40,041 bases of DNA. Source: Ruminococcus sp. (GTDB lineage Bacteria; Bacillota; Clostridia; Oscillospirales; Ruminococcaceae). The position numbers were made by a program, and so were the translations under genes. A model generated the notes under the pieces. It searched no databases. It saw only the letters and a list, made by a program, of their open reading frames with translations, and had not been told where the DNA came from. Positions 8,854-39,880 of this stretch are shown here, piece after piece; position 1 is the stretch's first letter, and each line of letters opens with the position of its first letter. Location: positions 1 through 40,041 of the forward strand of contig JAFZRF010000013.1 in the NCBI GenBank assembly GCA_017620025.1. Reading direction: 5' to 3'.

Positions 8854-9927
8854 TCATGAGCCTATCAGACTCTGGTCAAAAGCAAACAGAGCCTCGTTGA
8901 TCTCGTAGATATTATAGTTGCTGCGTTCAATGAAATAGCGTATTATCAGATCAAATTTCAGACTGTCCGACAGGGCGAATCCTGCTTTTTTCAGCAGATC
9001 CTCGGTCTCGCCGAGATCAAGCTCAAGCGCTACGGCAAAGGCAACAGCCGTCTGCTTTTTAGGCTTGTAGTTCCTGTCGCTGCGTATCTTTGAAAAGAGC
9101 TTGCGGTCGATATTGGCTTTTTTATATGTCTCGACATCCGTCATGCCCTTTTCATCTATCAGCCGGAGCAGAGCCTCCGAGAAGGATTCATCATGCGTTT
9201 TCAGCATATCTTCAAGGTCGGCACTTGTTTCACAGCAGATATCCTCTTTGAGCATTAAAGGCGAAGCGTATTCTGCCTGGCTTTCCTTTTTCTTCCCGAA
9301 TAAACTGCTGCTTTTCGGCTTCAGCGGTGATGCGGCAGCATGATTCATTCCGGATGATTTGCAGTTCTTTCTGTTCCTTACGTCATTTTCTGCGCATTTT
9401 TTTGCGTAAGCATCGCTTATATACTGCCTTATCTCACCGACGATCCCGGAGCTTACCTCAAAGGAAGCCTTATCGAATATGACGAGTGTGATATCCATGT
9501 CGTATTTCTCAAGGAAGCTCCTGAATTCGGAAACCGCCGCATCAAGAGCCTTATCCTTCGGGTATCCGTATATGCCTGATGATATAAGAGGGAAGGCTAT
9601 ACTTTCACAGCCTTCAGACCGTGCAAGCTCAAGGGAATTCCTGTAGCATGAACGCAGGAGCTCTTCCTCGTTCCGGTCTCCGCCCTGCCATGCAGGACCT
9701 ACCGTATGTATTATATATTTACAGTCAAGAGCATATCCCTTTGTAAGCTTTGCTTCTCCTGTTCTGCAGCCGCCGAGAGTCCTGCATTCCTCGAGCAGCT
9801 CAGGTCCTGCGGCATGATGTATTGCGCCGTCAACTCCGCCTCCGCCGAGCAGTGATGAATTGGCAGCGTTTACTATCGCATCGGCACTGACCTTTGTAAT
9901 ATCGTTCCTGATGATCCTGAAAGGCAT
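8854..9927 (-). CDS. Macrodomain protein with HTH-like C-terminal domain
   Basis: A 357-residue protein whose first 165 residues form a MacroD-type ADP-ribose-binding domain. Visible motifs are NAAN (20-23), [14 protein letters not shown] (28-41), IIHTVGPAW (72-80) and [12 protein letters not shown] (112-123). Proteins of this type bind ADP-ribose and often remove it from proteins or hydrolyse O-acetyl-ADP-ribose. A Ser/Lys-rich linker (about 185-230) leads to a helical domain (245-357) with [20 protein letters not shown] and [19 protein letters not shown], which reads like an XRE-type helix-turn-helix followed by [20 protein letters not shown]. Start ATG follows GGAGG; promoter at 9960-9988. 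The VWA gene follows at 108 bases, so a two-gene unit is likely. Function as a regulator is inferred. Confidence 0.88.
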
Positions 9928-11002: not shown

Positions 11003-13141
11003 TTATTGTTCATTTACCAGTCTGCGTCTCATGAAGCAGAGGTCAAATGTATCCAGTCTGCTGTCTGCATAAAGGTCGCCGGCTTTCCAGTCGGCAAGAC
11101 GGGTATCCGGTACGCCAAGCAGCCACTTCTGCAGCAGAACTGCATCGGCAATGCTGAATTTACCGTCACCGTTCACATCGCCCGCTGCCGTCTGAGCAGT
11201 CCATCCTGAGAGCGCTTTTACAGACGGTACCCATGCAGGCTTTGTTTCTCCGTTTTTCAGCGGGATGCAGGCTACTGAGATCGCTGCCTCTTTTGTATTC
11301 GTCAGATGAACGGCGAGCTTTCTGTACTCACTGTTATCCTTCTGATCGGGTACGACAGGGGAGGAGGGCAGAGCTTCGGCATTCATTGCAGTGAACCTGC
11401 CGCCTTCGCTGAGCAGACCCGTCCACAGCTTTTCGGAGCCGACGGTAATAACGGCGCTTCTGCCGTCATCAGCTACCTCTATCTGTCCCTTCGTGTGAGC
11501 AAACCAGTATATCTCACCGGGGGCATCAAGAGATATCTCATCCTGGATTATAACGCATTCCTTGTCCTTTATCATTTTCAGGCCGCGCACAACGCTTTCT
11601 GCGCCGCTCGGTTCGTATGCGGCGGTCAGATCGGTGACAGCAAAAGCTTCGTTTCCTCCGCTGAAGCGGCTGATAAGACATTCTGCACCTTCCTGCTGAT
11701 CGAGCTCTGCGGAGGGATTTATGACAATGGTGTTATGGCCTTCGGCTCTTATCCTGTAGGAATACTGACGGTTCGGAAGCTCATAGCTCTCATTGCCGAG
11801 ATCGGTAAAGAATCTTGCACCGTTCGACTCGATATAGAATGAACCTAAGTCGTAGTGGCCGTGATATTTGTATTTGTTTTCGCCGGCATGAAGAGCCGCC
11901 ACAATGCCGCTTTCATCCCAGGTATTCCTGAAGCTTGCGTTTGACGCTCCTTCTTCACCCCAGTCAGTGGGACTGTCCTTGGCTGAACCGGATGTCTTGT
12001 CCTCATCGATCCAGAGAAGATCGAGATAATTGAAGCTGTCGTCCTTTATCTTACCGAGACGAATGGCTGATATGTCGTATGAACGGAAATAATCACCCAG
12101 CCAGAGGAGAACTGCCCAGCCTGTATCACGGCTGTCACCGTCATCACCGAAACTGAAGGACTTTGAGGTGTTGGAACTCATATAGCGGATAAAATCAACA
12201 GATTTACGGAGCCCGTCAAAATCAGCAAGACCGTAGTCGGTTCCTGCGGCGCTTGTCAGTGCGGAGGAATTCAAGCCAAGATAATATGTTGCGTAATCCC
12301 AGTAGCCGAGTCCTTCACTGTATGTTCCGTCTTTTTCGCTGTAGGCACGGCGAACAAATGAATATGCTTCCTTATAGGCATAGGTGAGGACGTCAGAAGC
12401 GATGTCTCTTGCGTCGGCTTCATCTCCGACTGCAAGTGCGGCCATGCTTATGCTTCCGGTGCAGACAAGTTTCCAGTTATCGCCGGGAAAATCCTGATAC
12501 CAGCGGTATGTGCGGCTTCGCTGCTTGTCCTCAAAATCCTCCATGACCTGAGTGAGTCCTTTTTCGATCAGGCTTTTCCTGACGAAAGCTCTTTGCTCAT
12601 CGTTCATCCAGTTATATAGCCAGTCATAGCCGATCGCAAAGCCTGTACTCATTTCAGCGGTATCAAGAAAATGATACGGATTCCAGTCCTTGAAATTACC
12701 GGCTGCTTCAAGCTCTGCATAGCACCGGCGGGCATATTTTTCATCGCCGAAAATATTGTACGCCATTGCAAGCGCAGCAACACGGCGCTGTATTCTTTTT
12801 GAGGTTTCGAGAAGGCGTATCCCGTCGGGGATCTCATACTGACATACTGAAGTATCCAGTATCCTGTCAGCTTCCTTGCGCATTTTCTCAAGAAGAACGG
12901 CCGTTACCGAATCGTCTCCGATATGCGTTTTCAGTTTTTCAAATTTCTCCTCCGACATGATGATGCGCGGATGAGCATACATCCCGTTCTTTTCGATCAT
13001 ATCGCTGATAACCTTTTTGCCGTCAGTGAATTCGCCGTAGCTTTCTGGCTGTGAACCGGTATCCGCAGCAAAAGCCGAGCCCGGTATTATACCGATAACC
13101 ATGACCAGTACAAGCAGAATGATAAACATATGCTTTTTCAT
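11003..13141 (-). CDS. Dockerin-containing heparinase II/III-like polysaccharide lyase
   Basis: Secreted 712-residue enzyme. A signal peptide (1-27) is followed by an alpha-helical toroid region (about 40-370, with typical PYHFLDTAEMSTGFAIGYDW and FPGDNWKLVC), then the heparinase II/III-like beta-sandwich around residue 428 (HGHYDLGSFYIES, RAEGHNTIVINP), and a C-terminal type I dockerin at about 650-712 (GDVNGDGKFSIADAVLLQKW; LADWKAGDLYADSRLDTFD). Related enzymes cleave uronic-acid-containing polysaccharides by beta-elimination; the precise substrate is not readable. The start at 13141 follows GGGAGGG. The dockerin's close match to the one at 3702-5633 suggests both use the same cohesins. Promoter at 13189-13217. 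Confidence 0.87.
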   Translation of the reverse strand: MKKHMFIILLVLVMVIGIIPGSAFAADTGSQPESYGEFTDGKKVISDMIEKNGMYAHPRIIMSEEKFEKLKTHIGDDSVTAVLLEKMRKEADRILDTSVCQYEIPDGIRLLETSKRIQRRVAALAMAYNIFGDEKYARRCYAELEAAGNFKDWNPYHFLDTAEMSTGFAIGYDWLYNWMNDEQRAFVRKSLIEKGLTQVMEDFEDKQRSRTYRWYQDFPGDNWKLVCTGSISMAALAVGDEADARDIASDVLTYAYKEAYSFVRRAYSEKDGTYSEGLGYWDYATYYLGLNSSALTSAAGTDYGLADFDGLRKSVDFIRYMSSNTSKSFSFGDDGDSRDTGWAVLLWLGDYFRSYDISAIRLGKIKDDSFNYLDLLWIDEDKTSGSAKDSPTDWGEEGASNASFRNTWDESGIVAALHAGENKYKYHGHYDLGSFYIESNGARFFTDLGNESYELPNRQYSYRIRAEGHNTIVINPSAELDQQEGAECLISRFSGGNEAFAVTDLTAAYEPSGAESVVRGLKMIKDKECVIIQDEISLDAPGEIYWFAHTKGQIEVADDGRSAVITVGSEKLWTGLLSEGGRFTAMNAEALPSSPVVPDQKDNSEYRKLAVHLTNTKEAAISVACIPLKNGETKPAWVPSVKALSGWTAQTAAGDVNGDGKFSIADAVLLQKWLLGVPDTRLADWKAGDLYADSRLDTFDLCFMRRRLVNEQ

Positions 13142-13188
13142 TGATATCCCTCCCTGAATCAGATGAATAAAGAATGGTCTATATATAT

Positions 13189-13217
13189 AATATACCACAA
13201 TTATCGGCATATTTCAA
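13189..13217 (-). promoter_or_regulatory. Promoter of the heparinase-like gene
   Basis: TTGAAA (13212-13217), 17-base spacer, TATATT (13189-13194) on the minus strand. In the rest of the 13142-13466 gap I see no gene and no convincing plus-strand promoter for the LRR gene. Confidence 0.65.
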
Positions 13218-13466
13218 GCTTTTCTGCAACAGGTTACCGGATGGAAGAGAGAATCGCATAAACGTGCATCTGTTTTTATGGCGGCATAATATACAAAGAA
13301 AACGGTCGTGTTTTGTGCATTGATACAAAGTGTTTCTCAAAAAGTAAAAACCTGACACTTTTCAGACATTTATATAACAGAAGCTTTTACAGATGCAGCA
13401 TATAATACCTGTACACATTATACCAGTGATGTTTACGGCATCATTATCAACGAAGGAGTGACTGAT

Positions 13467-16400
13467 ATGTTATTCAGAAGATTTACAGCAGCAGTGCTCG
13501 CCCTGACATTAACAGGCGGAGCATTCTTATCATCGGCAGGAGACTGCCCGGTATTCCCGGTCAGCTATGCGGAGGAAGATATAGTCATTACCGGTCAGGG
13601 CCATGACTATATCTCTGTAACCGCAGGAGGACTGAACTACCTTGTCTTTGAGAAATCAGCGTGGCTGAACGGCTGTGATCCGGCGCTGAAAGGTGAGGTG
13701 AACATACCCGCAGAGATAATGGGGGTGCCTGTTGTCTGCATAACTTATGCGGCTTTCAGCGACAGGACAGACATAGTATCGGTGACTATACCTGATTCTG
13801 TTACCGAGATACAGTCAAAGGCATTCAGGAACTGTTCCGGTCTGACATCGGTCAGCATCCCGGCTTCTTTAACGAAGATAGGGGAGTTAATGTTTTCGGG
13901 CTGTTCCTCTCTGACATCGGTGACCATACCGGATTCCGTTACCGGTATAGGCACCGCTGCCTTTGCCGGATGTACAAGCCTTTCATCTGTTACGATACCG
14001 GATTCGGTCACCAGTATAGGCGGCAGTGCGTTCTCTGAGTGTACAGCCCTTACATCTGTAATATTACCGGCTTCTGTCCACTGGATAGACGACAGAGCGT
14101 TTGAGCTTTGTTCCGCCCTTGAGTCGATAACCATAAAGTCGCCTTGCTGCCGGATATCTCCGGAAGCTGATACGATCTGCAGCAGCGAGGATCCCGATGC
14201 GGATCACAATAACCGGTGTAAGTTCAACGGAACGATCAAAGGCTACGAAAATTCAACAGCACAGATGTACGCCGAGCATTTCGGTTATAGATTTGAATCC
14301 CTCGGCGCTGCGCCTATGATAGAAGATCCCGAAATAAGCACAGAGCCTTATGCCGAAGTTCTGAAGGATTCTCTGATATTCCGTGTCTTCTCCGATCATG
14401 CAGAGCTGGCCCACACTTATATGCCCGGTGAAGAGCTCGTCATTCCGGAAACGGTCAATGGTGTTCCGGTTACTGTGATAGGAGATGCAGCGTTGCTGCA
14501 GACTTATTTCACATCTGTAAGCATCCCGGATACGGTCACAAGTATAGGCGAAAATGCGTTTTGCAACAGCAGAGGCTTTTCATCTCTGGAGATACCCGAC
14601 TCGGTCACAAGCATAGGCAGGTCTGCATTCGACGGCTGCGGTTTTACATCGGTCACTATACCTGACTCGGTCACAAGCATAGGTAAGTATGCATTCTATG
14701 AATGCGACCTTGAATCGGTCACTATACCCGATTCAGTTACAAGCATAGACGAGGATACTTTTTTCGGGTGTTCAGAACTGGAATCTGTAACGATACCTGA
14801 TTCCGTGACCGATATAGGAATGGAAGCATTTGAGGGATGCAGCAGCCTTAAAGAAGTGGAGCTCCCGTCATCACTGACAAGTATAGCGAAATGGTGTTTC
14901 GGATTCTGTAGAGCTCTTGAGAAAGTCACTATTCCCGATTCGGTAACAAGTATAGGTGAAGGTGCGTTCTGGGAATGTGAAAGCCTTTCATCTCTGGAGA
15001 TACCTGACTCGGTCACAAGCATAGACGGGCGTGCATTCTACAACTGCGGTCTTAAATCGATCACTATACCCGATTCTGTTACTGTAATAGAATCTGAATT
15101 ATTCGCTTACTGTACTGAACTTGAAGCGGTCACTATCCCTGATTCAGTCACGGCGATCGAGGCCTGTGCGTTCAAGGACTGCAGAAGCCTCAGATCGGTT
15201 ACTATCCCTGATTCTGTCACGTCGATAGGCAGTCATTGTTTCTGGGACTGTGAAAGCCTTGAAGAGATCATCATTCCCGCTTCTGTTACAGATATATCCG
15301 AAGGTGCATTCTGGAGTACACCGTGGCTGAAGGAAAGACAGAAGGAAGATCCTCTTGTTGTAGTGAACGGCATATTGATAGACGGAACTGCTGTCAGCAC
15401 GGAAGATGTTATCATACCCGATACAGTGGAACGTATCGGCGCTATGGCATTTGTAAACTGCAGCACTGCCGTATCTGTGACCATACCCGATACTGTCAGG
15501 GAGATCGGCTGGAATACATTCTCTGGCTGCGAAAACCTCTCATCGGTAACGATACCGGATTCTGTCAGCAGGATCGGAAACGGAGCATTTAGAAACTGTA
15601 CGAATCTTCTCAGCGTAACTATCCCCGCTGCTGTTTCAGAGATAGCGCCAAGGACGTTCAAGGAATGCAAGAAGCTGAAGACAATAAGTATACCTGATAC
15701 AGTCACAGTCATAGGCGATGACGCTTTTTCCGGCACTGAATGGCTGAAGGACAGACAGAAGGAAGATCCGCTGGTAATAGTAAACGGTATGCTTATAGAC
15801 GGAACAACGTGTACCGGCGCTGTTACCGTACCCGATACTGTAAAGAGGATATGCGATTCGGCATTCTATATGAGTAATGTCACATCGGTCACTGTTCCCG
15901 CATCTGTGAAGAATATAGGCTGTTATGCATTCTATTACTGCGATGAGCTTGAAACAGTGACGATACTGGATCCCGACTGTGATATATATGACGGAAAGGA
16001 AGTTTTCAGAGGAACAGACAAGTCAGGCGATCTTGACATATGGTATTTCGAAGGCACTATCCGCGGCTATGAAGGCTCTGCTGCTCAGAAACACGCTGAG
16101 AAGTACGGGTATAAGTTTGAGTCCCTCGGTGCAGCGCCCGCAGCAGCCGGAACAGAAATTCTTCCCGTTACTACGACATCAGGAAAAACAGCAGTTACCA
16201 CAACAACGACAGCATCGACCTCAAAACCGGCAGGCAAGACAACGACAACCTCGACTGCGAAGCCGGCAGACAAGACTACAGCGGCGACCACAACAGCAAA
16301 AACAGTCACAACGGCGACGACTACTGAATCAACGGCTGCAACGGAAAAAGTGCCTGAACCGGCCGGCACTGAGACTGTCGGCACGGTAGCTGCCGGAGAC

Positions 16401-16631
16401 GTAAACTCCGACGGCAGCACAGATTCAACGGATGCTTCCGAGATACTGCTTATCTATGCGCAGATATCAACAGGAGAAAACATCCTGACTGACGAGATAA
16501 AGGCCGCAGCCGATATCAACGGCGACGGACTTGTGGATTCCGCCGACGCATCACTGGTACTCGAATACTATGCCTACGTTTCCACAGGCGGAACTGATAC
16601 CGCTGATGTATACTTCGACAGCAAGCAATAA
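13467..16631 (+). CDS. BspA-type leucine-rich-repeat protein with dockerin
   Basis: Secreted 1054-residue protein. A signal peptide (1-37) is followed by two blocks of LRR_5/BspA (TpLRR) repeats of about 23 residues with consensus VTIPDSVTSIGxxAFxxCxxL, roughly residues 85-235 and 330-840; these form a ligand-binding solenoid and are known from bacterial surface and adhesion proteins. Each block is followed by a similar non-LRR stretch (KGYENSTAQMYAEHFGYRFE; RGYEGSAAQKHAEKYGYKFE). A Thr/Lys-rich linker (about 895-965) leads to a type I dockerin (977-1045: GDVNSDGSTDSTDASEILL, DINGDGLVDSADASLVLEYY). The ATG at 13467 follows GAAGGAG. Because many repeats share codons the DNA is internally repetitive. 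It probably docks on the cellulosome or cell surface to bind substrate or host protein; it has no catalytic domain. Confidence 0.9.
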   Translation: MLFRRFTAAVLALTLTGGAFLSSAGDCPVFPVSYAEEDIVITGQGHDYISVTAGGLNYLVFEKSAWLNGCDPALKGEVNIPAEIMGVPVVCITYAAFSDRTDIVSVTIPDSVTEIQSKAFRNCSGLTSVSIPASLTKIGELMFSGCSSLTSVTIPDSVTGIGTAAFAGCTSLSSVTIPDSVTSIGGSAFSECTALTSVILPASVHWIDDRAFELCSALESITIKSPCCRISPEADTICSSEDPDADHNNRCKFNGTIKGYENSTAQMYAEHFGYRFESLGAAPMIEDPEISTEPYAEVLKDSLIFRVFSDHAELAHTYMPGEELVIPETVNGVPVTVIGDAALLQTYFTSVSIPDTVTSIGENAFCNSRGFSSLEIPDSVTSIGRSAFDGCGFTSVTIPDSVTSIGKYAFYECDLESVTIPDSVTSIDEDTFFGCSELESVTIPDSVTDIGMEAFEGCSSLKEVELPSSLTSIAKWCFGFCRALEKVTIPDSVTSIGEGAFWECESLSSLEIPDSVTSIDGRAFYNCGLKSITIPDSVTVIESELFAYCTELEAVTIPDSVTAIEACAFKDCRSLRSVTIPDSVTSIGSHCFWDCESLEEIIIPASVTDISEGAFWSTPWLKERQKEDPLVVVNGILIDGTAVSTEDVIIPDTVERIGAMAFVNCSTAVSVTIPDTVREIGWNTFSGCENLSSVTIPDSVSRIGNGAFRNCTNLLSVTIPAAVSEIAPRTFKECKKLKTISIPDTVTVIGDDAFSGTEWLKDRQKEDPLVIVNGMLIDGTTCTGAVTVPDTVKRICDSAFYMSNVTSVTVPASVKNIGCYAFYYCDELETVTILDPDCDIYDGKEVFRGTDKSGDLDIWYFEGTIRGYEGSAAQKHAEKYGYKFESLGAAPAAAGTEILPVTTTSGKTAVTTTTTASTSKPAGKTTTTSTAKPADKTTAATTTAKTVTTATTTESTAATEKVPEPAGTETVGTVAAGDVNSDGSTDSTDASEILLIYAQISTGENILTDEIKAAADINGDGLVDSADASLVLEYYAYVSTGGTDTADVYFDSKQ

Positions 16632-28219: not shown

Positions 28220-31200
28220 TTATTGTTTCAGCGGCAGATCTTCCGGCTTTACGATACCTGCATCGATCTTCTGTATGACGATGGCATCTGTACCGGTGAT
28301 ACCTGCGGAGCCGTCGATATCGGCGTTTATGTAGCCGTCATCGGTGAGCGGGTACTTAGTCTTGTTGGCAACGTACTGGAGCACCGCTACTGCATCCGCA
28401 ACGTTGACAGAGCCGTCGCAGTTGGCATCTCCGTATGACGGAGACGCTGTCGTGATCTGTGTTTCGGGCTCTGTGGGCGGATCCGTTGGAGGCTCCGTCG
28501 GAGGCTCGGTGGGCTGAACTCTCTCCGCAGCGAATGCGGTATAGTTCATGCAGGCTCCGCTCATGCCGTTCGTGCCGAGTGTGAGCGTATCGCCGGCGTT
28601 CACGTCCTTTGCGTATACGTCGAAAGGCCTTATCTCCTCGCTGTCGTTGATCTCGACGATCTGGCCGGTCTTTGTGAAGCTGCCGAGCCAGGAGGGCGGA
28701 TTCTCAACTCTGCGGTCGAGTGCCACGTATACCGTTATATCCTTTGCAGCTGTGAGAACTGCCAGGTCTGAATCGGTATTCTTGGAGTTGCAGGCTGTTA
28801 TGATATGCTCTGCACCTGCGATATCGGCAGGAACGGAGGCTATGACGTGCTCACGGTCTCCGAATGCCTTGTCTCCTGTGCTGAAGCGCTCTGCTACAGA
28901 CCACTGTGCTCCGTAGCTTGCGTCCCTGACCTCGAGCTTTGCGATAAGCTCTGTCTTTATGTAGTCAGGCTCTGCGGGAGGAGTTGAGCCGCTTGAAGCA
29001 GAGCCGGCATTATATGCCTTCTGCTGCATACGTCCGGCGTTTGCGATGACCTCTGCCTTTGCCTGATCGGGAGTCTGGGGAGTATAGCTGTACATATTCA
29101 GATCGAAGTTGTCGTATCCGTCGCCGCCGCCCACAAGGTTGCCTATCTGTGCGGCTTCGTTTCTGGAGTATACGATCTTGTATGCAAGGTTGCTGCCCAT
29201 ATTGCAGTTGTCGAACTTGTCGTTGTAGGACTTGATAGTTCCGGAGTACTGGTCGCTGCCCATATTGACTGCATCGAGCGGAAGATTTGTCTGCTGGAAG
29301 TAGTTGGCCTCGGAGAATACCTTCGAGTTGTAGGAAGCGCCTATGCCGTACTGCTTGTTGGTGGTGAAATAGTTGTTGTAGCTGTGTACATGGGCCCTTC
29401 TCGCACGGGGATTTCTTGACTCGGTGTTGTTGAACCAGTTGTGGTGGTAGGTTATCCAGTCCTGCTCATGTGATGTGCCGCCGCCTACGAGTGAGGTCTT
29501 GTGGCAGTCCTTGTATACATTATAGGATACTGTAACATACTCAGCCCACTTGATATCCGTTGAGCCGTCGCCGTCAGCCTTGTCGTCGTCAACGATTCCG
29601 TTTCCGGCGAAGGCATTGTAGCCGCTCTCAAGGGTGTTGTTGTGTATCCACATATGGTAGCACTTGCTCGAGCTGCCGCCCGACATGGAGATTCCGTCAT
29701 CGGGGTACTTGCCGAGCCAGAGATTCCTTACCTCGCAGGAGGTGGAGTGCTTCATGTCGAAGCCCCACTTGTCGAGGTTCGCATCGTAGCCGATACCTTC
29801 AACAGTGACGTTCTTTCCGCCCTTCATGTAGAGCATATTGGAGCCGTCATTCTGCTGGCCGTCATTAGCCTTTGCGCCTGCGGGAACACCGACAGTGCCG
29901 ATGAGACGGAAGCATACGTTTGAGGGCTCGTTGTCGAAGATGCTGAAGAGGCCTGTCTTGCCGCCGTATGTGATGGTGTCCTTGTTGGAGTTTGTAACAT
30001 AGATGACAGTAACGCCTGATTTCAGAGTACCGTCGTTGTTGTAAGCGCCGACGCCCTCGGTGGTGTTGTAGTGAGCGTAGCCGCTGCGGTCGTATGCCAT
30101 TGTCTTTATATCACACGATGCGCTGCCGTTTGAACCTGTGACAGTTACGGTATACTCAGTGTTGCCCTTGAGTCCGGGGATATCAACACGGCTGCCGCGG
30201 ATGAGCTCCGCATCTGCCTTTGAAAAGGATGAAGCGCCTTTCTCGGCGTAGGTAACTGTTACGCTGCTGCCGAGCTTTGAGCTGTCCCACTCGACGAAGG
30301 CTGTCTCGAACCAGCCGCCGCAGAGGGTAATTGCATCTGATACTGACTGGCCGGGCTGCTCCGTCTGACCGGACTGGCCGGACTGCTGGCCGTCGCCGTT
30401 TATGAAGGCGGGCGTCCAGTTGTTCATGTAGTTCTTTATATTGATGCCTGCTGCATCATTGGCGGAGATCACGTGTCCCTTTCTTGCATAGAGGTTCACG
30501 CCTGAGCCGTCGGCGAGCTTTGTGCCGTATTCCTTGAAGCCGTCAACGGTCTCGGGCTCAACACCGCTCATGGAGTACCAGCCGGCATCGTTTATCATAT
30601 TGCCGTTCTGGAGAGTGGTATTGAGGAAGAGCACCTGTGCATCCTGTCTCCAGGGTCTGCCGAGGTAGCCCCTGGTGACTGTGAGCTGGGAATTGGCTGT
30701 CACCTTGCAGTTGTTGAAGAGGTAGCCCGTGTAGGGGCTGCCCTGGCTTCTTGCTGCGGTGATGTAGCCGCCTGTGGAACCGCTGCTGTAGCCCTTCCAG
30801 CGGAGCTCACAGGAATCGAATACCGCATTGCTGCCGCCGAAGATGTAGTCGGTCTGTCCTTCGATGAGACAGTTGCGGTAGTACTGAGGAGAACCGCCTG
30901 TATAGAGGGTATCCTGGCTTGAGAGGAACTTGCAGTTGAGGAACTCGCAGTATCCTGTATCAGCCGAGAGAGCAGCGGCACGCTCAGTATACGCCTTTGA
31001 CTGAACGTCAACGCCGCTGTAGCGCTGTACAGTAAGAGTCTCGTTGGTGCATTCAACGCCGTCTGCTATCTCCTCCTGTGTGAGGTAGCGGTTGAAGGAA
31101 TTTTCGAAGGTGATGTTCTGAGCCCTGAAGTATGTAGCCTTCGGCCAGAGCTGCACAGTAGCGCCCCAGCGGTAGTTGGCGACGTTTTTGCCGGACTTTG

Positions 31201-31594
31201 AAGCTGCATGGCCTGAGTCATAGTAGCCCTTGTCGTTGGCACTGTAGTACTTGTAGCCTATACCGTAGTACCAGGTGAGCACGACATCGCCCTTCGAGGG
31301 TTCATCGTTCATGAAAGTGATGTAGGGTGTCTGTACCACGACCTGCTGACGGTAGGTGCCGGGAGCGATGTGGATGGTGACACGTTCGTTTTCGGATGAG
31401 GGGTTGAGCGAAGCCGCTCTGTTCACTGCCTCCTGGACGGTCGAGAAGTTGTTGTCTCTGCCTGAGTAGCCGACATAGAGGTCGGTGCCCGCCGCATAGG
31501 CTGTGTGCTGAGGGAACACCAGCATTGCGGTGAGGAACATACACAGTGCAGAGATCACAGCAAGAGCGTCCAGCGTGATCTTTCTGACTTTCAT
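28220..31594 (-). CDS. Pectin methylesterase / pectate lyase with dockerin
   Basis: Secreted bifunctional pectin-degrading enzyme, 1124 residues. Signal peptide (1-35); carbohydrate esterase family 8 domain (about 36-395) with catalytic D228 (SSQDTLYTGG), D249 (GQTDYIFGG) and GRPWR (312-316); a fibronectin-III-like domain (about 420-500); a polysaccharide lyase family 1 domain (about 500-830) with DDGISMSGG, ITYHHNWFNNTESRNPRARR and HSYNNYF; a beta-rich C-terminal domain (880-1020), probably carbohydrate-binding; a Pro/Thr/Glu linker; and a type I dockerin (1053-1115, GDANCDGSVNVADAVAVLQY; DIDGSAGITGTDAIVIQK). The esterase removes methyl groups so the lyase can cleave polygalacturonate. The ATG follows AAAGGAG. 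Promoter at 31705-31733. Confidence 0.93.
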   Translation of the reverse strand: MKVRKITLDALAVISALCMFLTAMLVFPQHTAYAAGTDLYVGYSGRDNNFSTVQEAVNRAASLNPSSENERVTIHIAPGTYRQQVVVQTPYITFMNDEPSKGDVVLTWYYGIGYKYYSANDKGYYDSGHAASKSGKNVANYRWGATVQLWPKATYFRAQNITFENSFNRYLTQEEIADGVECTNETLTVQRYSGVDVQSKAYTERAAALSADTGYCEFLNCKFLSSQDTLYTGGSPQYYRNCLIEGQTDYIFGGSNAVFDSCELRWKGYSSGSTGGYITAARSQGSPYTGYLFNNCKVTANSQLTVTRGYLGRPWRQDAQVLFLNTTLQNGNMINDAGWYSMSGVEPETVDGFKEYGTKLADGSGVNLYARKGHVISANDAAGINIKNYMNNWTPAFINGDGQQSGQSGQTEQPGQSVSDAITLCGGWFETAFVEWDSSKLGSSVTVTYAEKGASSFSKADAELIRGSRVDIPGLKGNTEYTVTVTGSNGSASCDIKTMAYDRSGYAHYNTTEGVGAYNNDGTLKSGVTVIYVTNSNKDTITYGGKTGLFSIFDNEPSNVCFRLIGTVGVPAGAKANDGQQNDGSNMLYMKGGKNVTVEGIGYDANLDKWGFDMKHSTSCEVRNLWLGKYPDDGISMSGGSSSKCYHMWIHNNTLESGYNAFAGNGIVDDDKADGDGSTDIKWAEYVTVSYNVYKDCHKTSLVGGGTSHEQDWITYHHNWFNNTESRNPRARRAHVHSYNNYFTTNKQYGIGASYNSKVFSEANYFQQTNLPLDAVNMGSDQYSGTIKSYNDKFDNCNMGSNLAYKIVYSRNEAAQIGNLVGGGDGYDNFDLNMYSYTPQTPDQAKAEVIANAGRMQQKAYNAGSASSGSTPPAEPDYIKTELIAKLEVRDASYGAQWSVAERFSTGDKAFGDREHVIASVPADIAGAEHIITACNSKNTDSDLAVLTAAKDITVYVALDRRVENPPSWLGSFTKTGQIVEINDSEEIRPFDVYAKDVNAGDTLTLGTNGMSGACMNYTAFAAERVQPTEPPTEPPTDPPTEPETQITTASPSYGDANCDGSVNVADAVAVLQYVANKTKYPLTDDGYINADIDGSAGITGTDAIVIQKIDAGIVKPEDLPLKQ

Positions 31595-38092: not shown

Positions 38093-38115
38093 AAGCCCTG
38101 CTTTCGGCAGGGCTT
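38093..38115 (+). terminator. Terminator of the lipoprotein gene
   Basis: AAGCCCTGC pairs with GCAGGGCTT around TTTCG, followed by AATTTTATA. Confidence 0.8.
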
Positions 38116-38165: not shown

Positions 38166-38184
38166 ATGTCATTAACAGCGACAT
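38166..38184. promoter_or_regulatory. Operator-like inverted repeat, upstream copy
   Basis: ATGTCATTAACAGCGACAT: arms ATGTC and GACAT. Identical to the copy at 38298-38314 over 17 bases except one. It lies about 60 bases before the -35 box of the dehydrogenase-fusion promoter. Confidence 0.65.
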
Positions 38185-38242
38185 ATCTCCGGCGAGATGT
38201 GAAGTATTATGTGAAAGACTGTAACAATATTGAACAAAGCTA

Positions 38243-38271
38243 TTGACATTGAAGCAAGCGTCTGTTATAAT
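38243..38271 (+). promoter_or_regulatory. Strong sigma-A promoter of the XRE-dehydrogenase fusion
   Basis: TTGACA (38243-38248), 17-base spacer, TATAAT (38266-38271), both at consensus. Flanked by two copies of an inverted repeat, which suggests tight repression of a strong promoter. Confidence 0.85.
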
Positions 38272-38297
38272 GTATTTATCGATAACAGATCGAAGTG

Positions 38298-38314
38298 TGT
38301 CATTAACAGTGACA
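38298..38314. promoter_or_regulatory. Operator-like inverted repeat, downstream copy
   Basis: TGTCATTAACAGTGACA: arms TGTCA and TGACA around seven bases. It lies about 20 bases past the expected transcription start and 24 before the ATG, where bound protein would block transcription. Second copy at 38166-38184. Confidence 0.7.
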
Positions 38315-38337
38315 TTGCTGATCAGGAGGTATAAAGG

Positions 38338-39828
38338 ATGAAACATCTTTCTTTGGAAAAGCTTGCACAGGTAGTAATCAGCAAGCGTAAGGCGCTTGGT
38401 CTGTCGCAGACTGTTATGTCCGAAAGGACAGGCATCAGCCGCACCATGTTCACAAGGCTTGAATCCGGGAACTACAGCCCGTCAGTAGATCAGCTTCTTG
38501 CGCTGTCGGAGGTACTGGATTTCGATTACAGAGACCTGTTCGTTGATGAAGAGGTCAAGGCAAGTCCGGTGGAGAAAAAGAAGATAGCGGTTGCAGGTAC
38601 GGGTTACGTCGGACTTTCTCTTGCAGTTCTTCTCTCACAGCACAACGATGTTACTGCCGTTGACATCGTACCGGAGAAGGTCGAGAAGCTGAATAACTGG
38701 AAATCACCTATACAGGATGACTATATAGAGCAGTATCTTGCGGAGCATGAGGAGAGGGGACTGTCTCTCCGGGCTACAACAGACGGCGAGTCTGCATATA
38801 AGGACGCTGATTTCATCATAGTTGCTGCTCCTACAAACTATGACCCGAAAACCAATTTCTTTGACTGCTCAGCTGTTGAAGCGGTGCTGGAGCTTATAAA
38901 GAAGGTGACCGGCAAAAAGAAGCACAAGCCGACTGTTGTTATCAAGTCGACTATCCCGGTAGGATATACCGTGCAGGTGCGTGAGAAAATGGGCATGGAT
39001 AATATCATATTCAGCCCGGAGTTCCTGAGAGAGTCCAAGGCGCTTTACGATAACCTCTATCCGAGCCGTATCATCGTGGGTTCTGACGAAAAGAACATGG
39101 AGGCGGCGGAGATCTTTGCAGGTCTGCTCAGTAACGGTGCTATCAGGACGAATATACCTGTTCTTTTTATGGCCACAACGGAGGCCGAGGCAACAAAGCT
39201 GTTCGTGAATACATATCTTGCACTGCGTGTGAGCTACTTCAACGAGCTTGATACCTATGCAGAGGTCAAGGGACTTAATACTGCGAATATCATACGCGGG
39301 GTATGCCTTGATCCCCGTGTAGGCGATTACTACAACAATCCCTCGTTCGGCTACGGCGGTTACTGCCTGCCTAAGGATACCAAGCAGCTCCTTGCGAATT
39401 ATCAGCACGTGCCGCAGAATATGATGACTGCTATAGTAGAGTCAAACAGGACACGAAAGGATTTCATAGCTGACCGTGTGCTGCAGATGGCTGAGTACTA
39501 CAGCTACGGAAGCAACAACGAATTCGACAGCAGCAAGGAGAAGAATGTAGTTGTCGGAGTGTTCCGCCTGACCATGAAGTCAAACAGCGATAACTTCCGC
39601 CAGTCCTCTATTCAGGGCGTTATGAAACGTATCAAGGCGAAGGGCGCTACAGTGATAATATATGAGCCTACGCTCGAGAACGGAAGCACATTCTTTGGCT
39701 CCCTTGTTGTGAACGATCTTAAAAAGTTCAAGAAGAAGTGCGGATGTATCATAGCGAACAGATACGACAGCGTTCTTGATGACGTAGCCGAGAAGGTCTA
39801 TACAAGAGACCTGTTCAGAAGAGACTGA
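38338..39828 (+). CDS. UDP-glucose/UDP-sugar 6-dehydrogenase fused to an XRE DNA-binding domain
   Basis: A 496-residue fusion. Residues 1-70 are a complete XRE/Cro-type helix-turn-helix ([40 protein letters not shown]). Residues 80-496 are a nucleotide-sugar dehydrogenase: NAD site G87-x-G89-x-x-G92 ([10 protein letters not shown]), [25 protein letters not shown] and catalytic C343 in [14 protein letters not shown]. The length after the fusion point matches the short E. coli Ugd type, so UDP-glucose to UDP-glucuronate is the best guess; UDP-N-acetyl sugars remain possible. The ATG follows AGGAGG and is the only sensible start, so the fusion is not an artefact of start choice. Two inverted repeats around its promoter suggest autoregulation. 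No frameshift seen. Confidence 0.92.
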
Positions 39829-39880
39829 TGATATCCTGTTCAGTATAACGAGCTGTTTTTCAGAGACAGCATTTTCAATC

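Follow-up and report, generated by a model that had tools for sequence, protein, structure and literature searches.

An XRE-type DNA-binding domain fused to UDP-glucose dehydrogenase in Ruminococcus and its relatives: a probable trigger enzyme that would repress its own gene

Introduction

Few enzymes are known to control their own genes by a DNA-binding domain of their own. For E. coli K-12, the consulted part of PMC8249747 counts five trigger enzymes (BirA, NadR, PepA, PutA and PyrH), and PutA is described there and in the consulted part of PMC6978683 as binding DNA only in the spacer that separates putP from its own gene, putA. In a 40,041-nucleotide stretch of DNA from a Ruminococcus sp. 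(contig JAFZRF010000013.1; "the window" below means this whole stretch), a UDP-glucose dehydrogenase (UGDH) gene begins with an XRE-type helix-turn-helix (HTH), and two inverted repeats stand on either side of its promoter. This raises the question of whether the fused protein binds these repeats, and whether it thereby represses its own gene.

Results

An HTH joined in frame to a complete dehydrogenase

The features of the locus, with strand and basis, were as follows.

38093..38115, + strand: intrinsic-terminator-like hairpin of the upstream gene (consensus scan only)
38167..38183, no strand: predicted distal operator, TGTCATTAACAGCGACA (sequence; box search)
38243..38271, + strand: sigma-70-type promoter TTGACA-17-TATAAT, 12/12, with TG before the -10 hexamer (consensus scan)
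38298..38314, no strand: predicted proximal operator, TGTCATTAACAGTGACA, about +20 to +36 from the presumed start site (sequence; box search)
38324..38329, + strand: Shine-Dalgarno AGGAGG (sequence)
38338..39828, + strand: XRE-UGDH fusion gene, 496 aa, ATG start (ORF reading and domain profile matches)
38383..38532, + strand: XRE/HTH_3 domain, residues 16-65 (Pfam profile match)
38443..38454, + strand: recognition-helix residues 36-39 (TMFT), tracking operator class (mutual-information ranking)
38578..39825, + strand: complete UDP-glucose 6-dehydrogenase, residues 81-496, catalytic Cys343 (profile matches, invariant residues)
39852..39870, + strand: terminator-like hairpin after the stop codon (consensus scan only)

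The fusion gene is the last gene of the window; it stands alone as far as the end of the contig, 213 bp after its stop codon, and appears monocistronic. Its 496-aa product matched the Pfam HTH_3 profile at residues 16-65 (37.7 bits against a cut-off of 23) and three UGDH domains between residues 81 and 483, which bore out the initial annotation in describing an XRE HTH joined in frame to a complete UGDH-like enzyme (residues 81-496). The nucleotide-sugar dehydrogenase model TIGR03026 scored 311.3 bits, above its curated cut-off of 189.8. The best family match was NF011631 (UDP-glucose 6-dehydrogenase equivalog), to which residues 82-496 aligned at positions 2-388 of 388, the full model length, yet its 530.7 bits were below the curated equivalog cut-off of 757. 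The enzyme part also aligned at full length to 3phl (E 6e-148) and 1dli (E 4.8e-138), which we take to be the Klebsiella and Streptococcus UDP-glucose 6-dehydrogenases; these ordinary UGDHs matched the fusion only from residue 79-82 on, with no HTH aligned. Residues T205, E228, E232, K287, N291, C343 and D347, which we take to be the catalytic residues of UGDH, were unchanged in all 85 fused proteins over 480 aa. The fused protein is apparently an active enzyme that shares one chain with a DNA-binding domain, and by homology UDP-glucose would be its substrate.

The HTH resembled P22 c2, SinR, 434 and C.AhdI chains, several only weakly (E 0.013 to 0.74 for P22 c2, 434 and SinR, weak for each). 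XRE repressors of the P22 c2, 434 and SinR type have palindromic operators; unlike in these repressors, the C-terminal domain of XRE-UGDH is a catalytic enzyme. Residues 36-39 presumably lie within the recognition helix, judged from the helix assignment and the alignment to known XRE proteins. A BzdR/BoxR-type identity was not supported, as NF006015 (anaerobic benzoate catabolism regulator), which we take to be the model of this type, gave 23.9 bits against a cut-off of 204 and covered residues 6-74 only.

A consensus promoter between two near-identical palindromes

The initial annotation had placed a consensus promoter between two nearly identical inverted repeats, and both parts were found again: the promoter matched at 12 of 12 positions, and the boxes at 38167-38183 and 38298-38314 were 17-bp palindromes with one base different, two perfect 5-bp arms being present only in the second. 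The gap from the first box to the -35 hexamer was 59 bases, and that from the -10 hexamer to the second box was 26 bases. With the start site placed 7-8 bases after the -10 hexamer, the distal box would lie at about -112 to -95. The hairpin at 38093-38115 would insulate the fusion-gene unit from the upstream gene; terminator-like sites near the fusion gene numbered three in the region against a mean of 1.4 in shuffles. No Rfam match at gathering score was obtained for an RNA element within the window.

Besides the pair, the window had no box matches at up to 3 mismatches, and shuffles gave a mean of 0.47, with at least 2 in 8 of 100. The 2.7-Mb assembly (75.9% complete) likewise held no box matches besides the pair at up to 2 mismatches; since a reversed control pattern gave 4 matches in the same assembly at this limit, the match count in the assembly is no argument by itself, and it is location that counts. 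By the shuffles of the window, the pair is only mildly unusual, and the case was therefore made from relatives, so that the claim that the boxes exceed chance is one of cross-species comparison and not of the window.

Occurrence of the fusion

A search for relatives took in 99 genomes, the window's own among them, and showed the full-length fusion (query 1-496) in that genome and in 13 congeners, of which three had two copies. Most of the further close UGDH relatives listed from the genus aligned only from about residue 75-82 on. Within these 14 fusion genomes, a further near-complete close UGDH was listed only for G043, where it has one internal stop, and G024 had a fragment. The relatives search and the class-motif search of the genus described below are both samples. 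At the order level, 24 of 197 genomes matched at E ≤1e-60, and in 6 of the 24 (own included) the alignment began at residue 1 and took in almost the entire protein. When named genomes were scanned with the HTH alignment, 104 relatives came up; the best 80 of the 104 were kept and included Ruminococcus flavefaciens strains, R. albus AR67, Eubacterium ruminantium, Lachnospiraceae and many rumen MAGs, a set biased to close relatives because the scan was seeded with two peptide patterns and kept the best 80 of 104. Full-length fusions were also carried by plasmids of Butyrivibrio fibrisolvens, Enterococcus hirae and E. faecalis (4 records among the 10 matches listed of 806), and in the three plasmid copies that were read, nearby genes had polysaccharide-synthesis annotation.

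Phage origin was considered and rejected. The whole protein matched 39 phage records, but nine of the 10 listed began inside the enzyme or just before it (residue 73 on) and the remaining one was weak (26.7%, from residue 30). The HTH stretch matched 40 phage records, each with less than 60% identity; among the 20 listed, the annotated ones were mostly repressors or XRE regulators, and several had no annotation. Three other XRE-bearing frames of weak similarity were read as not being nucleotide-sugar enzymes.

A serine-recombinase-like gene was recognised by motif within 5 kb in 13 of 90 fusion loci (L034, L036, L050, L054, L055, L068, L080, L085, L111, L124, L127, L128 and L129), and a BLAST cluster of such genes covered 18 loci; the one at L080 matched the Ccr and XisF models below their cut-offs. 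Some fusion copies may ride on mobile elements.

Paired boxes distinguish fused from non-fused UGDH genes

We compared 90 fusion loci, near-duplicates such as L056/L058 included (distinct upstream stretches and distinct proteins number 87 each), with 16 non-fused UGDH relatives, 15 of the genus and one (L032) of the order. A box was defined as TGWYR-N7-YRWCA with at most 1 mismatch, and a strict box as TGTYR-N7-YRACA. Boxes were counted in three windows in all, among them a proximal (-60 to -20) and a distal one (-186 to -150), measured from the start codon; for the non-fused genes positions were counted from the match start, and L030 had only 52 bp upstream. The shuffles kept base composition only.

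Counts are given as fused loci; shuffles; non-fused genes.

Proximal box: 74/90; 4.9; 1/16
Distal box: 64/90; 5.2; 4/16
Both boxes: 58/90; 0.45; 0/16
Box in any of the three windows: 83/90; 13.65; 7/16

A strict box within 600 bp was present at 62 of 90 fused genes (28 lacked it) and at 0 of 16 non-fused genes; for the latter the count was again 0 of 16 in up to 700 bp. In total, 91 strict boxes were found in 52,277 bp, against 0.68 in shuffles. This analysis showed that both boxes together, or a strict box, separate fused from non-fused genes, but a single one-mismatch site does not. Fusion homologues without the repeats, which the initial annotation had named as counting against its reading, were seen at seven of the 90 loci: L070, L082, L088, L098, L115, L116 and L110, the last with only 117 bp of DNA upstream.

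Where both boxes were present, 46 of the 58 loci had the proximal and the distal box 130-132 bp apart. The pattern class TTGACA-17-TATAAT was recognised in 47 of 90 fusion loci (12/12 in 31 of 90), and in these the position of the -35 hexamer hardly varied: in 42 of 46 of them it preceded the proximal box by 54-55 bp. A third, farther box occurred in 25 of 90 fusion loci against 3.5 in shuffles, many of them Lachnospiraceae-type, and of the 20 loci that have it together with the distal box, 15 show a distance of 33 bp between the two. The three plasmid copies each had two palindromes at the promoter, with spacings of 94, 124 and 124 bp, and the distal boxes of both Enterococcus copies had one mismatch. 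Strict helical phasing was considered, since the spacing in L045 (122) is about one turn shorter, but it was rejected on account of the plasmid spacings of 94 and 124 bp.

Box class follows the recognition helix

The box sequence varies between fusion loci. In boxes without mismatch, the TGTCA half-site made up 36 of 46 in genes with an [ST]MF[ST] helix but 2 of 212 in the others; genes without the MF helix mainly had the half-sites TGTTG, TGTTA, TGACG or TGTCG. We then ranked 70 HTH columns by mutual information with box class over 70 distinct HTHs (identical HTHs collapsed; L087, L112 and loci without boxes left out; half-sites of L052 entered by hand), and columns 38, 37, 39 and 36 ranked first to fourth. 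Without the hand entry, helix and box agreed in 15 of 16 MF rows, the exception being L052 itself, and in 58 of 58 others.

A tree built from the dehydrogenase portion (88 rows) shows 6 changes of helix class and 7 of box class. Independent switches of helix and operator numbered three when only branches with good support were counted (6 for the best tree) and agreed in 3 of 3, which is not significant because so few switches cannot reach p = 0.05. The sharpest single case was L069 (R. flavefaciens YAD2003), which by its enzyme falls with L042 (100/99) and the window (98/90). Over the last third of that enzyme, identity is 88% to L042 and 78% to L033. Between -120 and nucleotide 240, L033 is the nearer (87-93%, against 52-80% for L042), and the boxes of L069 are of L033's class. 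Farther upstream, at the distal box, identity is 73% to L034, 71% to L067, 59% to L033 and 42% to L042. The breakpoints are not sharp, because this distal stretch is nearer to L034 and L067 and the region 300-1000 barely separates L033 from L042. The simplest reading of these identities is a mosaic, in which promoter, operators and HTH would have moved together onto another enzyme backbone.

Paralogues in one genome with different helix and box class were L042/L078 (ATCC 19208), L049/L080 (007c) and L041/L067, and those with one box class were L005/L038 and L077/L079.

Search for a wider regulon

The initial annotation had also suggested looking for sites at other polysaccharide genes, and with the class motifs no wider regulon was seen in 60 genus genomes. 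The TGTT-class motif gave 11 sites, 8 of them at fusion promoters, with 3 for the reversed-pattern control, and the TGTC-class motif gave 31 sites, 7 at fusion promoters, with 28 for the control (sites were assigned to fusion genes by coordinates). Outside fusion genes, the class motifs were at background level. One suggestive pair of sites, G048:C1, was discarded because it lies inside coding sequence, which presumably belongs to tlyA and dxs. A looser palindrome, TGTYRYN5RYRACA, was near the reversed-control counts in most of 14 genomes and was uninformative; it exceeded the control in G044 (41/10), G040 (32/16), G046 (32/18) and G017 (38/20). The simplest target is the fusion gene itself, together with any gene that shares its operon.

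Genes around the fusion loci

An epimerase/dehydratase-family gene lay within 100 bp downstream in 27 of 90 loci by motif count (80 of 90 have at least 1.2 kb downstream), and the one at L078 matched PF01370; conversion of UDP-glucuronate to UDP-galacturonate would fit this gene. In nine of 90 loci (L072, L073, L075, L093, L094, L097, L099, L105 and L106) a galactokinase-like GHMP kinase followed the fusion after 3-39 bp, with a sugar nucleotidyltransferase after the kinase in L072; these loci possibly represent a uronate salvage route. A second, HTH-less UGDH was present within 5 kb of the fused one in L089, L095, L101, L107 and L127, 20-23 bp downstream in three. In these neighbours the residue matching D109 of the window protein was Thr in 5 of 5 and the other ten checked residues were kept, and the Thr may reflect a different cofactor preference. 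Some recombinase-bearing loci had a small gene (136-142 aa) after the epimerase, for example L080 7740-8151, which had no Pfam or NCBIfam match.

Elsewhere in the window, 11003-16631 and 28220-31594 encode dockerin-bearing heparinase-like and BspA-repeat proteins and a pectinesterase-pectate lyase fusion, so the organism looks like a cellulosome-type plant-polysaccharide degrader. A macro-domain protein of 357 aa is encoded at 8854-9927, and about 220 residues after its domain had no Pfam match.

Discussion

The best reading of the comparisons is that XRE-UGDH is probably a bifunctional trigger enzyme that represses its own gene through the boxes flanking the promoter. The earlier proposal that the enzyme represses its own gene was supported in part, as far as binding is concerned: comparison between loci (both boxes at 58 fused genes and none of the non-fused, the match of helix and box, and their apparent joint exchange) strongly supports binding of the fused HTH to its own promoter. 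Repression rather than activation is what we infer from box position and promoter strength, and it is favoured by the 12/12 match of the promoter and by the box that lies a short way past the start.

A UGDH dimer (homodimer contacts of family members are described in the consulted part of PMC4794789) would present two XRE HTHs to one 17-bp palindrome. The protein would then bind the palindromes on either side of its strong promoter and shut off its own transcription, so that the level of the enzyme making UDP-glucuronate would set itself. With a second box, binding might be cooperative or form a loop; looping is possible, the spacing being 130-132 bp in most loci with both boxes, though 94, 124 and 124 bp in the plasmid copies. 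Occupancy by UDP-glucose, UDP-glucuronate or NAD(H) may plausibly tune DNA binding.

A fuller reading joins these parts. Promoter, two or three operators and HTH would form an exchangeable specificity cassette, replaced as one block on active enzymes and comparable to phage immunity regions, so that chromosomal and mobile copies repress themselves without cross-talk, each as a metabolite-gated loop repressor of UDP-glucuronate supply. We put this forward tentatively, as possible but less likely than not; same-class copies in one genome (L005/L038, L077/L079) speak against the insulation part, and the distal-box stretch of L069, with its 59% identity to L033, against block replacement.

The alternative that comes closest is that the HTH binds its own boxes without gating by the catalytic domain, as a level-sensing autorepressor for which UGDH serves only in dimerisation. 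Joint variation of box class and HTH speaks for it, but fusion to the very enzyme controlled and 85 intact active sites in 85 proteins are easier to understand if ligand state matters, and we regard ungated autorepression as possible though somewhat doubtful. Positive autoregulation from the distal boxes is improbable: a distal box about 100 bp upstream of the presumed start, and in some loci a third box 33 bp further upstream, would suit an activator, but perfect-consensus promoters (31 of 90 loci) hardly need one, and the commonest box lies downstream of the presumed start. Still less probable is a separate XRE regulator that binds the boxes, with the fused HTH as a passenger; other XRE-like stretches are common in these genomes, but neither the strict box nor the pair occurs at the 16 non-fused genes, and box class follows the gene's own fused helix also in paralogues (L042/L078, L049/L080). 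That the repeats have no function and are there by chance, or because the region is of common descent, is hardly credible despite the weak window-only test (8 of 100 shuffles; 4 control matches in the assembly) and the one-mismatch sites at 7 of 16 non-fused genes, since the boxes stay where identity from -230 to -120 to other loci is 17-45% (two of three genes; 34-73% in the third), change class with the helix, and occur as a pair at 58 of 90 fused genes but none of 16 non-fused ones.

Like PutA, BirA and NadR of E. coli (PMC8249747 and PMC6978683, in the parts consulted), the probable autorepressor described here would be a metabolic enzyme with its own DNA-binding domain; unlike in those three, the domain is of XRE type on a nucleotide-sugar dehydrogenase, no wider regulon was found with class motifs, and box and recognition helix diversify together between loci. 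With BzdR, an XRE HTH on a shikimate-kinase-like domain, it shares the N-terminal HTH and the enzyme-derived C-terminal domain, but the XRE-UGDH family keeps its catalytic residues in 85 of 85 proteins, whereas the BzdR authors call loss of activity essential (PMC3602430, consulted part). The family thus resembles a natural version of the HTH-plus-enzyme chimera that, according to the same part of that paper, they built. A term search in the available text of a UGDH family analysis (PMC4794789) gave no helix-turn-helix, DNA-binding or fusion, and among the matches listed in an open-access literature search no description of an XRE-UGDH fusion was found.

The XRE-UGDH family would thus be trigger enzymes of a new variety, a status that sequence comparison suggests. 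In it, an XRE domain is naturally joined to what appears to be a working enzyme, homologues with operators to match are available by the dozen, and two things become testable: a joint change of specificity in HTH and operator, and a first committed enzyme that would itself set the supply of UDP-sugars for acidic polysaccharides.
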